A stretch of DNA of 64,000 nt. Source: Escallonia rubra (lineage: Eukaryota > Streptophyta > Magnoliopsida > Escalloniales > Escalloniaceae). The position numbers were made by a program, and so were the translations under genes. The notes beneath the pieces are model-generated. The model saw only the letters and a program-made list of their open reading frames with translations, had not been told where the DNA came from and made no database searches. The DNA is taken from assembly GCA_033065855.1 (NCBI GenBank), contig JAVXUO010001609.1:186001-250000 (forward strand). The letters are read 5' to 3'. Below, one piece after another: positions 29,701 through 35,700 of this stretch (positions are counted from its first letter, which is position 1; each line of letters opens with the position of its first letter).

Positions 29701-32700
29701 ATTAGATCCTTCACCGCCTTGTTGGACGTTGTAAGAGAAGCCTCACCCCTTATTTTGCCATCACCCATAATTTAGGCCTAATTACTATGGGCACCGTCCA
29801 CTACTACCAAGATGGTTTCTACTATTTTTGCTGACCCGCGACTCCGGATATGCTAACGTGAATGTACGCCTCCCAATCCTCATCGCCACCGGCCGATGCA
29901 CGGGCCAATAAGACCATCGCTCACCGTCATTGCAGTTGCGGCTGAGTTTTTGCAGTTCCTGCTAACGTGCGCCTCTCCGAAATTGTCGACCACCCACCAC
30001 GAACCCCAGATGATCGCGACGCCCGAAAAGCCTCCGCGGAAGTTTCTGCCTCCGTGTGAGACGCAGGAGAAAGCGCTGTCCCTGATCGAGGCCTACAGCG
30101 AGAAGTGGTGCGAGCTCTGCTACGGCTACCTCCGCACGATCGACTGGGACGCAGTGGCCGACAGTGTGGGTATTCGCTGCCCAGGGGCCTTCCCGGCAAA
30201 GACCTTTGCGCAGTGCCGCCACAAGATGGAGAAGCCCGACAGCGCTAATGAATGGGGTTGTGTGGACGCCTAATTGGGGTTTAATGTCAAATTTAATGGG
30301 TGTGGGTGTGTGTTGTGTGAATGTGTGTTCTGTGGTGTGGGGGGTAGGGTCGGGGTGTTGGAGAGTAGGAGAAGGGGAAGAAGGGAGAGAAGTAGAAAAG
30401 AAAGACAGAAATGAGAGGGGTTGATGCTGATGGAAGAAGAGAGACAAGAGGAAGAGAAAGTAGATGGTTTGGTCTTGAGGGGCAATCATGTCATTTAACA
30501 CAAAATGTTAACACCATTAGTATTCTGTCTGGTCAACGGATATAAGTGATATAAACGCTAACATGTGTCCTCGACTGTAATATACCCCTAAACTCAGGGA
30601 TATAAGTGATATTATCCCAATAAAATATGACTCATAAATAAAACATGAGTCATACCCTAGCACTACAAGAAAAAGGACTTTTAACGACGGACACTTCTGT
30701 CGCTAAAACTCCGACATCCGTCGGAAAAATGTTTTAGCAACGGATACCTCGTAGCTAAAACTCTGTTGGCTAGAACCCCGTCTCTAAAAGTTTTGCGACG
30801 GAAATTTTCAATTTGTCTCCTAAAGTAACCTTCAACGACGAACGTACAAATACAATTTGCGACGGATTTTCTGTCGCTAAATCTATTTTCCGTATTTTAA
30901 TTTATTTTCTTTTTTCAGAAATAATTTATTACCTAAATATTTAGCGACGAAATTCCGTCGCTAAACGTTTGTCATTTAAAACTTTAGCGACGGAATTCCC
31001 GTCGCTAAAAGCCATTCTTTTAATAGTAGTTAGACTTTTAGCTACAGAATAAACATATATAGTGGTTATACCTGATTCTGCGCTGTGATCCTCCTATAAA
31101 CCTCCGCAGCAATGCGACGTACCTCGTCCTCATGTAATGACGAGCGCTCGACAGTCGGTGTCTGTGTCTGTGGAGATGCAGCGGGGGGTGGGGACGCTCA
31201 TATCACGGCACGTGCAGTCATACCATTTATTCTCCCTCCAATGATCATGTAGTAAAAGAGATTGGATATACCCTAATTAAACTTTAGTTTACAGTAATTA
31301 TTCCTAATTAAACCCAACTAACTCAGATTAGCCTTAATTAAAATTAATACCATAATTAACCCTAATTTACTGTTAATCTTTAATTAGCCCTAATCACCGC
31401 TGATTAACCTAATTAAACATTGATTGTCCAGATAAATCGTAGATAAACCCTAATTAAACCCAATTAAGATAATTAACTGTAATATGTTCTAATTAGGCTC
31501 CACTAGCCCTTAGTAGCCCGAATTAGCCCGAATTAATCCCTGAATAACACTAATTGAGTCTAACTAAACGCAATTAACTGTAATCAACCCTAAATAGCTC
31601 GAATTACCCAAATTGCCCCTGATTAATGCATTAACTCGGCATGTTCACCTTAATTAGTTATTATTTATTTAGGTTCGGTACAAAATCATTTGGTTATAGT
31701 GAACTTGAACAGAGAAAATCATCATTCATAAATGCTTTAATATCTAACAATCCACCAAATCGAGATTCTCAAGTAAACCCGATGCTTTTGGTTGGTAAGC
31801 AATGGACTCTAAAATTTCCCTTAGCTCGTCTTGTTGAACCATCTCGTCTAAGATCTTTTCTTTCGGGACTTCAAAAAACACTTTTGGCTCGCAACTCTCC
31901 ATGTCTGCAGAAGAGAATACTTTTTGAGACAAAATATATTTCTCAGCCTGTCGCAGACATTTCCTGCCCTCCATTGTTCCTGAGGTAATTAGATGGTAAA
32001 TGTACACAGTTTTCTTTAAACCGATGTCGTATGCCCGACATACGGCTTGCCTTTCAACTGATGGATTGCAACCAATATCAAGCAACACAAATCTCGACGC
32101 CCCTACCAAATTTATGCCCCAGATAGCTTGCCTTTCAAACCTCATTTAGCTCGAATTAGCCCTCATTAGTATTAACCCTATTTAGCTCGAATTAGCCATA
32201 ATCGGCCCTGGTTGGGGCTTCGAGAGTTGTTTTGCTTGATATTGGTTGGAATCCATCAGTTGAAAGGCAAGCCATATGTCGGCATACATGATTGGTCAGA
32301 AGAAAACTATGTATATTTACCATCTAATTACCTTAGGAACAATGGAGGGCAGGAAATGTCTGCGACAGGTTGAGAAAGACCTTTTGTCTCAGAAAGTCTT
32401 CTCTTCTGCAGACATGGAGAGTTGAGAGCCAAACGTGTTATCTGAAGTCTCAGAAGATAAGATCTTAGATGAGATGGTTCAAGATGACGCGCTAACGGAA
32501 ATTTCTGAGTCCATAACTTACCAAACAAAAGCACCGTGTTTACTTGAGAATCCTGATTTGGTGGATCCTTAGATATTAAAGGATTTATGAATGATGATTT
32601 AAGTTCTCTGCTCAAGTTCACTATAACCAAATGATTTTGTACCGAACCTAAATAGATAATAGCTAATTGAGGTGCAAATGTCGAGTTAATGTGTTAATTA

Positions 32701-35700
32701 GGGGTAATTAGGGCAATTTTGAGCTATTTAGGGTTGATTACAGTTAATTGCGTTTAATTAGACTCGACTAGTGTTATTCAGGGATTAATTTGGGCTACTT
32801 AGGGCTAGTTGAGCCTAATTAGAACATATTACAGTTTATTACCCTAATTGGGTTTAATTAGGGTTTCTCTACGATTTATCAGGAAAATTAGGGTTTAATT
32901 AGGTTAATCAGCGGTGATTAGGGCAAATTAGAGATTAAATTAACAGTAAATTATGATTAATTAATGTTAATTACGGTTAATAGTTTTAATTAGGGCCGAT
33001 CAAGGCTAATTCGAGCTAAATAGAGTTAATGCTAATGAGGGCTAGTTCGACCTAAATAGGGTTAACTAGAGTTAATTGGGTTTAATTAGACTTATTTATT
33101 GTTAATTAGGGCTTAAGTAAGAGCGAATTAAGGTTATTAGAGTTAATGTGCTAATTAGGGTTAATTAGGATTGAGGCACTTTAGAATTCGTTGAGTTCAT
33201 TCGCAGAGTTGATATTGTTCCACCTGTGATTGAGTCCAGGGTTTAAGTATATAGTTAGAGTTAAATAGTATTTAGGATAATTAGGAGTACTGTAATAGGG
33301 TTTAATTAGAGTGTAGTTAGGGTAAATTAGGGTTAATTGAGGTTAATTACGTTTACTTAAGGTTAATCAGGGTTATTAGGTTTAATATAGTTAATTATGT
33401 TTAATTAGGGTGAATCGGAGTTAATTACAGTTATTTAGGGTTGATCGGGGTTAACTAGGTTTAATTAGGGTGAATCAGGATTAATTAGAGTTAATTATAG
33501 TTAACTAGGGTTACCTAGGGATATGTTAGGGGTTAATCGGGGCTTTTTAGGGTTAATCGGGGTTAATTATGTTTACTTAGGGTTAATCAGGGTTATTTAG
33601 GTTTAGTCAGGGTTACTTAGGGTAAATCAGAGTTAATTACAGTTAATCGGGGTTAATTAGGATTGATCGGGGTTAACTAGGTTATAATTAGGATGAATCA
33701 GGGGTAATAAAATCAAGGGTTAATTACTCACGGCACCCCTGAGGTTTATCCTAAATTACACACGGACCCCTTATCTTTTGAAAATTACACTCCGCTCCCC
33801 CAGGTTTGTACCCGCATTTCACGGAGCCCCACAAAATTGACGGGGACCCTAACTCCGTCTAAAGATTCTCTGACACCTTACTTTTTGAATTTTTCATCCC
33901 CAAACTGCCCTCCCTTTCTTGAATATATACCCCCTTGCCCTTTAAGATTATTCTTCTTCATTATCTTTCCCTTTGCAGACCCATTTGGGTCTGCATTTTT
34001 GCGGCGTTTGTACGGTGTTGGTTGCGGCGTTTGTGCGGTGTTTGTTGCATGGGTGAGATTAGGATCGGCCGACGTTTTGTGCGATGTTGGTTACGGCGTT
34101 TGGGTGGGTGTTTTTCGGCCGATATTCGTGGACGGCGTGTGGGGTTGGTTACGGTTGCGATAGGGGAAATCGAGATCGGTAAAGGAAAAGGAAACGATCT
34201 CCTCGACGACAGAGAAGAGGGAGGGGTGAAGGCGAAGATGGTCTGCGGCGTTCGCTCCATCCTTGCTACAGAGAAGAAGGTGTGGCAGTTGGTGATAGAA
34301 CTTGACAGTGTGGATGGTGGCTGCCTCGACATCGCCGAAATTTTATTGGTTGGGCATCCGGCGACAATGTCGGCAACAATCTCCGGCGACCTCGCTGGCA
34401 TCACCCATTTTCCCTGCTACCAAGCCTACGCCGGCAACACCATCTAGCGAACCCAACAGACCCATCCGTGACCACCCACGACCACCATACTGCCCAGCAA
34501 CGACCCACCACCGACGACCGATAAATCGTCCTACTCACGACTACCCATGACCATTAACCGCCACGAATCCCAAAACCCATCATCCAATAACCTTTGGCAA
34601 CCGTTCGCGACCCACCAACGACGACCATCAGCCACCACAGTGCCTGCCAACCCGCCGTCGCTGCGACATTTGACCCAATCACTACATCCCATGACAACTG
34701 GCGAAACTCGCAACCACAAGACACTCTCACAACCACAAACAACGAACCCACGACCACACCATGTCCAACGCCTCCAACAGAAGCTCACAGGCATGGATTA
34801 AAAAACCATAAGGTAGAAATGGTTTTAGGTGCCCCGCCACCAAATGCCCAACCTTCACCAATCGCAATTGCACAACCACGGGGATGGGGAAATACAGACA
34901 ATCGCAATTGCACAATCGCAATTGAAAGTCTGTAAATTTCTCTCCAAAACCCAAGAGACACTGTGTACTTATATACAAGGGCATAAATGTCTTTTTATGT
35001 CCAGCCGTTAACACCGTTAAAGAAAGTTAGATTTTAGGAGCGGAGTGTAATTTTCAAAAGATAAAGGGGTCCGTGTGTAATTTAGGGTAAACCTCAGGGG
35101 TGCCGTGAGTAATTAACCCTAAAATCAACAGCAAGAGCAACAGCATAACTTAGAGCATTTGAAGTGACATTCATAGAATTGTAGAGACATAATCTACTTC
35201 TGAGATTCAGCTACGCATGCTTTATATTTCCAAAAATATACTCAATCAGACGACAATAAAAATAGTACATCCAAGAATGTAATCAGTAGAAATCTAAAAA
35301 TGGGCCCTAGTCATGAAGTAAATAGACACGAAACGCCAAAAAAGTAACTTAGAAATACTTGCGAGATCAAGGCGGTCACATTAGTTTTACAAATCAACCA
35401 TGTAGCAAAATTTCAGCATGATTTGATATTAAGCAACTAAAAAAACATTTCAACCTCCCAATCTTAAAACTAAATGACCAAACAGGCTCAAGCTCAAGTA
35501 CATGGAAAATTCTAATGGCAAGTTTAAATAGTAACCTAACTAGTAAGCAACTATATTAAATTTTTAATTAGCTAATGTGATGTGCAATTAGTTAATTTTT
35601 TTTTACTTGAGAAAGATGCGCACTATGTGCCATATTGACGTTTAAACCAAAATGAGTCTGAATTAACCATAAACAATCCCTATTTAATCAATTTCCAAGC

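Follow-up and report, generated by a model that had tools for sequence, protein, structure and literature searches.

A CACTA-borne family of hairpins with arms of CLASSY3/4-type origin in the genome of Escallonia rubra

Results

An inverted repeat in a CACTA element within an intron

We analysed a 64,000-nucleotide (nt) stretch of the Escallonia rubra genome (assembly GCA_033065855.1, contig JAVXUO010001609.1, positions 186,001 to 250,000, forward strand; hereafter the window), focusing on a long inverted repeat near its centre. Both arms contain a fragment of a CLASSY3/4-type gene, a gene of RNA-directed DNA methylation (RdDM). The repeat lies in a non-autonomous CACTA transposon, which is itself inserted in an intron of a putative purple acid phosphatase gene. 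Positions without further label are those of the window; gene positions refer to the CLASSY3/4-type gene on contig C1563 of the same assembly. The main features are as follows.

26979-42228, plus strand: intron 1 of the purple acid phosphatase gene, 15.2 kb, enclosing the whole nest, with GT donor and AG acceptor
30661-36638, plus strand: non-autonomous Pack-CACTA carrying the hairpin, with CACTACAAGAAAA at both ends in inverted orientation and TAG flanks
31327-32108, minus strand: left arm, about 0.78 kb, CLASSY sequence antisense to the plus strand
31327-31665, no strand: outer left arm, degenerate AT-rich 10-bp TTAATTAGGG-type repeat, C-rich strand
31666-32118, minus strand: captured CLASSY3/4-type fragment of the left arm, gene 5781-6183 and 6856-6924 (79.5% and 85.5% nt identity)
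31747-32145, minus strand: left-arm open frame of 133 amino acids (aa) corresponding to the C-terminal helicase part of an SNF2 protein, with its stop codon at 31744-31746
32109-32208, no strand: loop of 100 nt, with about 25 nt of filler beside the left arm and then 70 nt of the 10-bp repeat in its C-rich orientation
32209-32981, plus strand: right arm, about 0.78 kb, CLASSY sequence sense
32209-32663, plus strand: captured CLASSY3/4-type fragment of the right arm, gene 5791-6185 and 6854-6933 (82.6% and 81.9% nt identity)
32664-32981, no strand: outer right arm, degenerate AT-rich 10-bp TTAATTAGGG-type repeat, G-rich strand

The two sides align in inverted orientation over 792 columns at 86% identity, with 29 gap columns (BLASTN, E=0), and the 1041-nt hairpin core folds at -688 kcal/mol, as compared with -239 +/- 8 kcal/mol for 20 mononucleotide shuffles. 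These two results place the inverted repeat far beyond chance. RNA folding of the interval 31600-32720 gave -744 kcal/mol. The arm alignment and hairpin energy suggested in the first-pass annotation of this DNA therefore bear out its inverted repeat, with corrected dimensions: the arms measure about 0.78 kb and not about 0.9 kb, and the loop has 100 nt and not about 60.

The CLASSY-matching share of each arm is about 455 nt and joins the coding end of the gene to a block past the stop codon (5781-6183 and 6856-6924 in the left arm). The left arm has an open frame, whereas that of the right arm is broken up in the window copy; a Pfam search of the bare arm frames gave nothing above the cut-offs. 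The 70-nt repeat stretch of the loop (32138-32207) is 89% complementary to 32994-33063, just beyond the right arm. The filler repeats a CLASSY codon stretch (gene 5843-5869) and would be a usual trace of template switching.

The CACTA element is bounded by a 3-bp target site duplication (TAG at 30658-30660 and 36639-36641). Exon 1 of the phosphatase gene ends at 26978 and exon 2 begins at 42229, so that the terminal sequences, the duplication and the flanking exons with their GT/AG splice sites agree with the earlier placement of a CACTA element in a host intron. The longest open frame within the element has 174 aa, and on this basis, together with a Pfam scan that covered only some of the frames, we read the element as non-autonomous. 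A fragment of a host gene (that on C1563) lies between its ends, in both arms, as in Pack-CACTA elements, which are non-autonomous CACTA elements with a captured gene fragment (review PMC13317346).

Gene origin of the arms

The whole assembly (566 Mb, 3222 contigs) was searched with a CLASSY-type bait, and all 27 candidates were scored. We identified one CLSY1-type gene (79% to the bait), two DRD1-type genes and one CLSY3/4-type gene on C1563, of which a near-identical second copy lies on contig C2428. The subfamily names are presumptive, and the ranking by identity was computed. The arm protein is 73% identical in aa to the C1563 gene; its identity with the CLSY1-type gene is 36%, and the two DRD1-type genes reach 52-54% over 50 aa. 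This ranking supports a CLASSY3/4-type origin of the arms, as the first-pass annotation had it, with the CLSY3/4-type gene as the closest SNF2 relative found in the genome. The C1563 frame (641 aa) contains the SNF2-rel_dom and Helicase_C domains.

The captured fragment lacks 0.67 kb between gene positions 6185 and 6854. Loss of an intron by way of an mRNA was considered and rejected: the missing segment has no GT-AG bounds and the two blocks overlap by a 3-nt microhomology common to both at the join, which argues for a deletion and not for splicing.

A multicopy hairpin family

The first-pass annotation described a single insertion. Its hairpin is confirmed, yet it belongs to a multicopy family: at least 52 loci in the genome have a CLASSY arm with an inverted partner. 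The search with the left arm contributed 36 of these, with an inverted partner beside 36 of the 40 scored loci (the best 40 of 256 candidates). The search with the gene (best 40 of 242 candidates scored) added 10 and that with an arm 24-mer another four, and L024 and L044 were each added after fetching. Within 2 mismatches the 24-mer matches the genome 205 times, 100 of these matches being listed, and its reversed-pattern control does not match at all. A paired 14-mer pattern for hairpin counting detected three loci only and was too strict for use. An origin by two separate insertions in opposite orientation, or by misassembly, in place of one hairpin unit can practically be dismissed, given the recurrence of the arm-loop-arm layout at those 36 of 40 scored loci, on many contigs, and the single clade formed by the left arms (see below).

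Twenty copies were fetched with their flanks, namely the top-scoring 20 of the 39 non-window loci ranked by likeness to the window left arm, and together with the window copy they make up our sample of 21. The ends of the window CACTA are common to genomic hairpin copies. The CACTA 5' end lies ahead of the hairpin in 17 of the 20 fetched copies, while L012 and L022 have subterminal parts only and L024 has none. Four of the seven copies checked have 3-bp duplications at both ends (TAG in the window, GTT in L009, TAC in L011 and ATC in L021); for L025, L026 and L027 no matching 3-bp duplication was found at the ends tried. A second arm match longer than 350 nt is present in 18 of the 20 fetched copies, is reduced to an 81-nt remnant in L017 and is absent from L015. 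All 15 of the sampled copies that were folded form 425-459 pairs, with perfect helices 31-83 bp long. This long near-perfect inverted repeat with a short loop is a feature of long-hairpin small interfering RNA (siRNA) loci.

History and decay of the family

The tree was built from 21 left arms, 17 right arms and the gene; the truncated or poor arms L014_R, L017_R and L022_R were left out of the tree and the statistics, and L015 has no right arm. The left arms form one clade (support 99/97); the tree is star-like, its median end branch being 0.044, and the left and right consensus arms are 96.4% identical. These observations indicate that the window-type hairpin formed once, that its arms were about 96% alike when it spread, and that the copies have decayed since. 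Judged by the consensus frame, stop codons occur in 12 of the 21 left arms and 13 of the 17 right arms. Nothing seems to maintain the pairing, because the arms within a copy (88.3% identity, 17 copies) are about as different as arms from different copies (88.1%, P=0.10). By the same comparison, gene conversion that keeps the arms alike is unsupported, with L043 (see below) as a possible exception.

Divergence from the consensus was determined for eight element regions, with 5 to 21 copies per region (5 for the 3' subterminal region and 10 for the 3' end). The A/T-site values are lowest for the 5' subterminal region (0.021) and the two arm cores (0.022 each), followed by the outer arms with 0.025-0.030 and the 3' subterminal region with 0.033, and they reach 0.054 and 0.089 for the ends of the element. 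For CG and CHG sites the values lie at 0.11-0.24 over the eight regions (0.110-0.152 in the arm cores), and for CHH sites at 0.07-0.24; C-to-T changes alone amount to 0.112, 0.096 and 0.048 at CG, CHG and CHH sites, respectively. The raised decay at CG and CHG sites may be the mark of long methylation of the copies.

The consensus arms are 88.0% (left) and 89.6% (right) identical to the C1563 gene, with a synonymous divergence (dS) of 0.31-0.39, a nonsynonymous divergence (dN) of 0.058-0.070 and a dN/dS of 0.18-0.19. For the related sequences L042-L044, introduced below, the dN/dS against the gene is 0.20-0.26. Single copies compared with their own consensus give a pooled dN/dS of 0.55-0.59, as against 0.18-0.19 for the arms and the gene, which suggests that the divergence of the arms from the gene arose mostly under coding constraint before capture. 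The donor was probably another, diverged CLASSY3/4 gene (a lost paralogue or the gene of a relative), since the divergence appears to be older than the capture. Direct capture of the present C1563 gene is disfavoured by this dN/dS at the given dS. A second intact CLASSY3/4 gene was found neither among the 27 of 27 candidates scored with the bait nor among the 40 of 242 scored with the gene.

A sister form that is not inverted

Three further places, L042, L043 and L044, were fetched from the search with the gene as query. L042 has a single, longer fragment (gene 5692-6185 and 6854-7175), with no second arm within the 3.8 kb fetched. This fragment is accompanied by the same 10-bp repeat and by CACTA subterminal matches, and the repeat upstream of it forms a palindrome of 183 nt (82.6%). 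L044 is a longer hairpin with other junctions (gene 5752 and 5692) and a loop repeat oriented opposite to that of the window type. The junctions of L043 are those of L044 (5752/5692), and its arms (985-1407 and 2704-3122) are 1.3 kb apart and 96% alike. This likeness, far above that of other copies, may reflect late conversion or a younger duplication. In the tree, the window type is separated (97/95) from the gene and the five sequences of L042-L044.

The CLASSY fragment was probably captured once, because the window type and L042 have the 0.67-kb gene deletion in common with L044, where both arms show it, and with L043, where the right arm has it and the left arm ends short of the deletion site. 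Inverted duplication of the captured fragment perhaps happened twice, and the palindrome beside the fragment would provide a ready cause of repeated inverted duplication without selection. Three other repeat loci (L032, L033 and L038) carry a different CLASSY3/4 piece (gene 4407-4876, 86-88% to the gene), with stop codons in each gene match, pointing to a second, separate capture of such a gene.

Exact matches to the CLASSY gene

With the gene, the right-arm consensus shares 47 exact 21-mers and an uninterrupted identical stretch of 38 nt, the left-arm consensus 9 and one of 29 nt. An exact 21-mer is found in 29 of 38 arms and, in one arm or the other, in all 21 sampled copies; the window copy has 30 in its right arm and none in its left. 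Together the exact 21-mers of the sampled arms cover 227 of the 403 nt of the gene coding block. They do not match any of the six control SNF2 loci fetched, which represent four distinct places. Across 38 arms, the conservation of 21-nt blocks did not exceed that expected from permutation (p 0.13-0.20).

Neighbouring elements

Three more features lie close to the hairpin.

27839-28718, plus strand: truncated second CACTA 5' end, probably from a tandem duplication of the intron flank and 5' end
33296-33708, plus strand: further array of the 10-bp repeat, outside the hairpin and within the hairpin CACTA
33713-35123, no strand: Mutator-like element nested in the hairpin CACTA, with terminal inverted repeats at 33716-33798 and 35037-35120 (97.6%)

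The interval 27258-28718 resembles 28722-31167 (83-93% identity) around a Mutator-like insertion, which makes a tandem duplication likely. The insertion at 29203-30617 is a non-autonomous Mutator-like element that is flanked on either side by ATAAAATAT and has terminal inverted repeats of 58 bp (90%). It carries a frame of 138 aa whose Myb-like match is weak (E 0.009, under the curated cut-off), and it looks like a Pack-MULE, a Mutator-like element with captured sequence.

A TNP2 transposase frame (PF02992, E 3.4e-62) lies at 56293-56910, outside the hairpin CACTA. This frame and a DUF4218 frame (56293-58045 and 61483) have close by a CACTA end with a subterminal region about 70% similar to that of the hairpin element, and this CACTA is possibly a relative of the mobilising element. 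A second, inverted and diverged copy of the transposase region is also present in the window (18032-19653 versus 56390-57885, 65-69%). Finally, 52990-53550 is a tandem repeat with a 169-bp unit (3.3 copies, 93% matches).

Discussion

We lean towards the view that these loci are a Pack-CACTA hairpin family in which a captured RdDM gene was inverted at a palindromic repeat, amplified, and is now carried as a passenger. A non-autonomous CACTA acquired the 3' end of a CLASSY3/4-type gene, beside a palindromic AT-rich repeat, as shown by the anatomy of the hairpin and by its single-fragment relative L042. Judging from the junctions, fold-back or template switching at the palindrome would have produced the inverted duplications. 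A founder of the window type, its arms about 96% alike, spread in a burst, as the star-like tree shows. Well-kept copies could form a double-stranded RNA (dsRNA) stem of about 440 pairs, in the case of the window copy as part of the phosphatase pre-mRNA. Dicer-like (DCL) enzymes would dice this stem into siRNAs that would mostly feed methylation of the hairpin family itself and, through exact 21-24-nt matches, could also reach the host's single CLASSY3/4-type gene.

A transposon-borne siRNA modulator of CLASSY genes had been proposed from the window alone. The exact matches (47 in the right-arm consensus, and some in 21 of 21 copies) agree with that proposal as far as they go, and silencing of CLASSY in trans by the hairpin is possible in principle. 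Three findings speak against a modulator that has been maintained: conservation of 21-nt blocks stays within what permutation gives, the arms within a copy are about as unlike as those between copies, and the donor seems to have been a diverged CLASSY copy. The hairpin looks like a passenger, with no selection seen that keeps either the pairing or the gene match.

Several observations weigh against this view. Since L044 and the window type have different junctions, inversion of the captured gene may have occurred on two occasions. The arm cores have the lowest transversion rate of the regions compared (0.0136 for the left and 0.0171 for the right, versus 0.0176-0.0613 elsewhere) and a high mean pairwise identity (0.916 and 0.905, versus 0.77-0.906 elsewhere). 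The low divergence of the left core can be explained by the choice of copies like the window left arm, and the right core is near the outer arms; we see no clear constraint on the arm cores in these alignments, although they may be under some. Of the 40 most window-like 390-bp 5' regions (the best 40 of 2338 candidates), no fewer than 17 have a listed CLASSY arm within 4 kb. The 26-nt CACTA end pattern has 391 matches, and at least 7 of the 100 listed are within 4 kb of a listed CLASSY arm; both counts are lower bounds, the lists of CLASSY arms being partial. By these counts, the wider CACTA group appears to have spread without the hairpin, which is common in the closest subfamily, and passenger and helper are left undecided by this pattern.

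The hairpin could instead be a trigger of self-silencing, its siRNAs mainly silencing the CACTA family and ending the burst in the manner of Mu killer. Mu killer of maize is an inverted repeat of transposon DNA that gives a hairpin RNA, carries transposase sequence and silences MuDR. Both are inverted repeats of transposon DNA; in our case the stem is a fragment of a host gene. The star-like burst followed by decay, the elevated divergence at CG and CHG sites of the eight element regions analysed, and the element repeat sequence that the arms hold besides CLASSY are consistent with such a trigger. The hairpins were, however, already present at the burst and not merely afterwards, and ordinary Pol IV (RNA polymerase IV) activity can give methylation without hairpins. 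By analogy with Mu killer we consider this scenario possible, and on balance unlikely. We hold a similar opinion of the hairpin as inert debris, lacking useful transcription and any effect. The decay of the coding frames, with stop codons in more than half of the left arms and most of the right arms, speaks for debris, whereas the position of the window copy in a gene intron with usable splice sites and the persistence of long near-perfect helices speak against it.

An anti-silencing role, in which siRNAs from the founder hairpin knocked down CLASSY3/4, weakened Pol IV-dependent methylation and drove the burst, is a more doubtful reading by analogy with miR820/OsDRM2 (PMC3459959) and TART-A/nxf2 (PMC7785250). 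The captured gene is of the RdDM type, the founder arms were near-perfect, and the right-arm consensus combines its exact 21-mers with a 38-nt exact run; the sampled arms cover over half of the coding block with no match to the control SNF2 loci. The hairpin perhaps formed twice, and window-like 5' ends are often near a CLASSY arm. Against this, the donor diverged from the present gene under coding constraint, so that it may have been another gene, and no 21-nt block stands out from permutation. The non-inverted L042 has a similar end branch (0.036), numerous CACTA ends lack a hairpin, and the raised CG and CHG decay says that the copies were methylated.

It is likewise rather improbable that the CACTA family made a CLASSY3/4 hairpin more than once and that the resulting siRNAs lowered Pol IV recruitment in reproductive tissue, triggering the burst. 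CLSY3 and CLSY4 control methylation in ovules (PMC8752594). If true, the CLASSY hairpin burst would parallel miR820 against OsDRM2, with a long hairpin directed at CLASSY in place of the miRNA, and would have left traces in all 21 sampled copies.

The closest known system is miR820, a fold-back in rice CACTA elements that is derived from and directed at OsDRM2 and is present five times in Nipponbare and at least 18 times in a BB genome (PMC3459959). Both are fold-backs inside CACTA elements that come from and match an RdDM gene and were copied to many loci by transposition. As described there, miR820 is one discrete 22/24-nt microRNA (miRNA) for which cleavage, methylation and co-evolution were tested, whereas the stem described here has about 440 pairs, no miRNA-like conserved block seen in it and a CLASSY3/4-type gene as its source. 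We do not file the CLASSY hairpin as miR820-like, because the feature of one conserved miRNA fails even though place and gene class agree; it may work as a source of long-hairpin siRNAs.

TART-A, a Drosophila telomeric element, captured part of nxf2, and its PIWI-interacting RNAs (piRNAs) and expression were measured (PMC7785250). There too a transposable element took up part of a gene from the silencing machinery of its host, a gene to which it may direct small RNAs; TART-A differs in being a fly telomeric element that involves the piRNA pathway, and the abstract of that report mentions no hairpin. Like the loci described here, Tpd1 of Teosinte Pollen Drive is a long natural hairpin; Tpd1 is a source of 22-nt hairpin siRNAs (hp-siRNAs) and silences a gene in trans (PMC11390486). 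The account cited presents Tpd1 as a single selfish drive locus against a lipase gene, with its function shown, and not as a transposon-amplified family. The family shares with other Pack-CACTA elements, as characterized in the review cited above, a captured gene fragment in a non-autonomous CACTA; here, by contrast, the fragment derives from a silencing gene and has become an inverted repeat. We found no report of CLASSY fragments in CACTA hairpins in the open-access PubMed Central (PMC) literature.

The main result is the multicopy hairpin family together with its non-inverted sister form, and an effect on CLASSY is a testable proposal. How transposons escape RdDM is poorly understood, and miR820 is a worked plant case of small-RNA counter-defence. 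A hairpin at no fewer than 52 loci, exact matches of siRNA length to the gene, and a sister form that provides a built-in control make a direct test possible. Even if the hairpin is a passenger, capture of a gene beside a palindromic repeat would have led to potential dsRNA against a silencing gene being spread across this genome.

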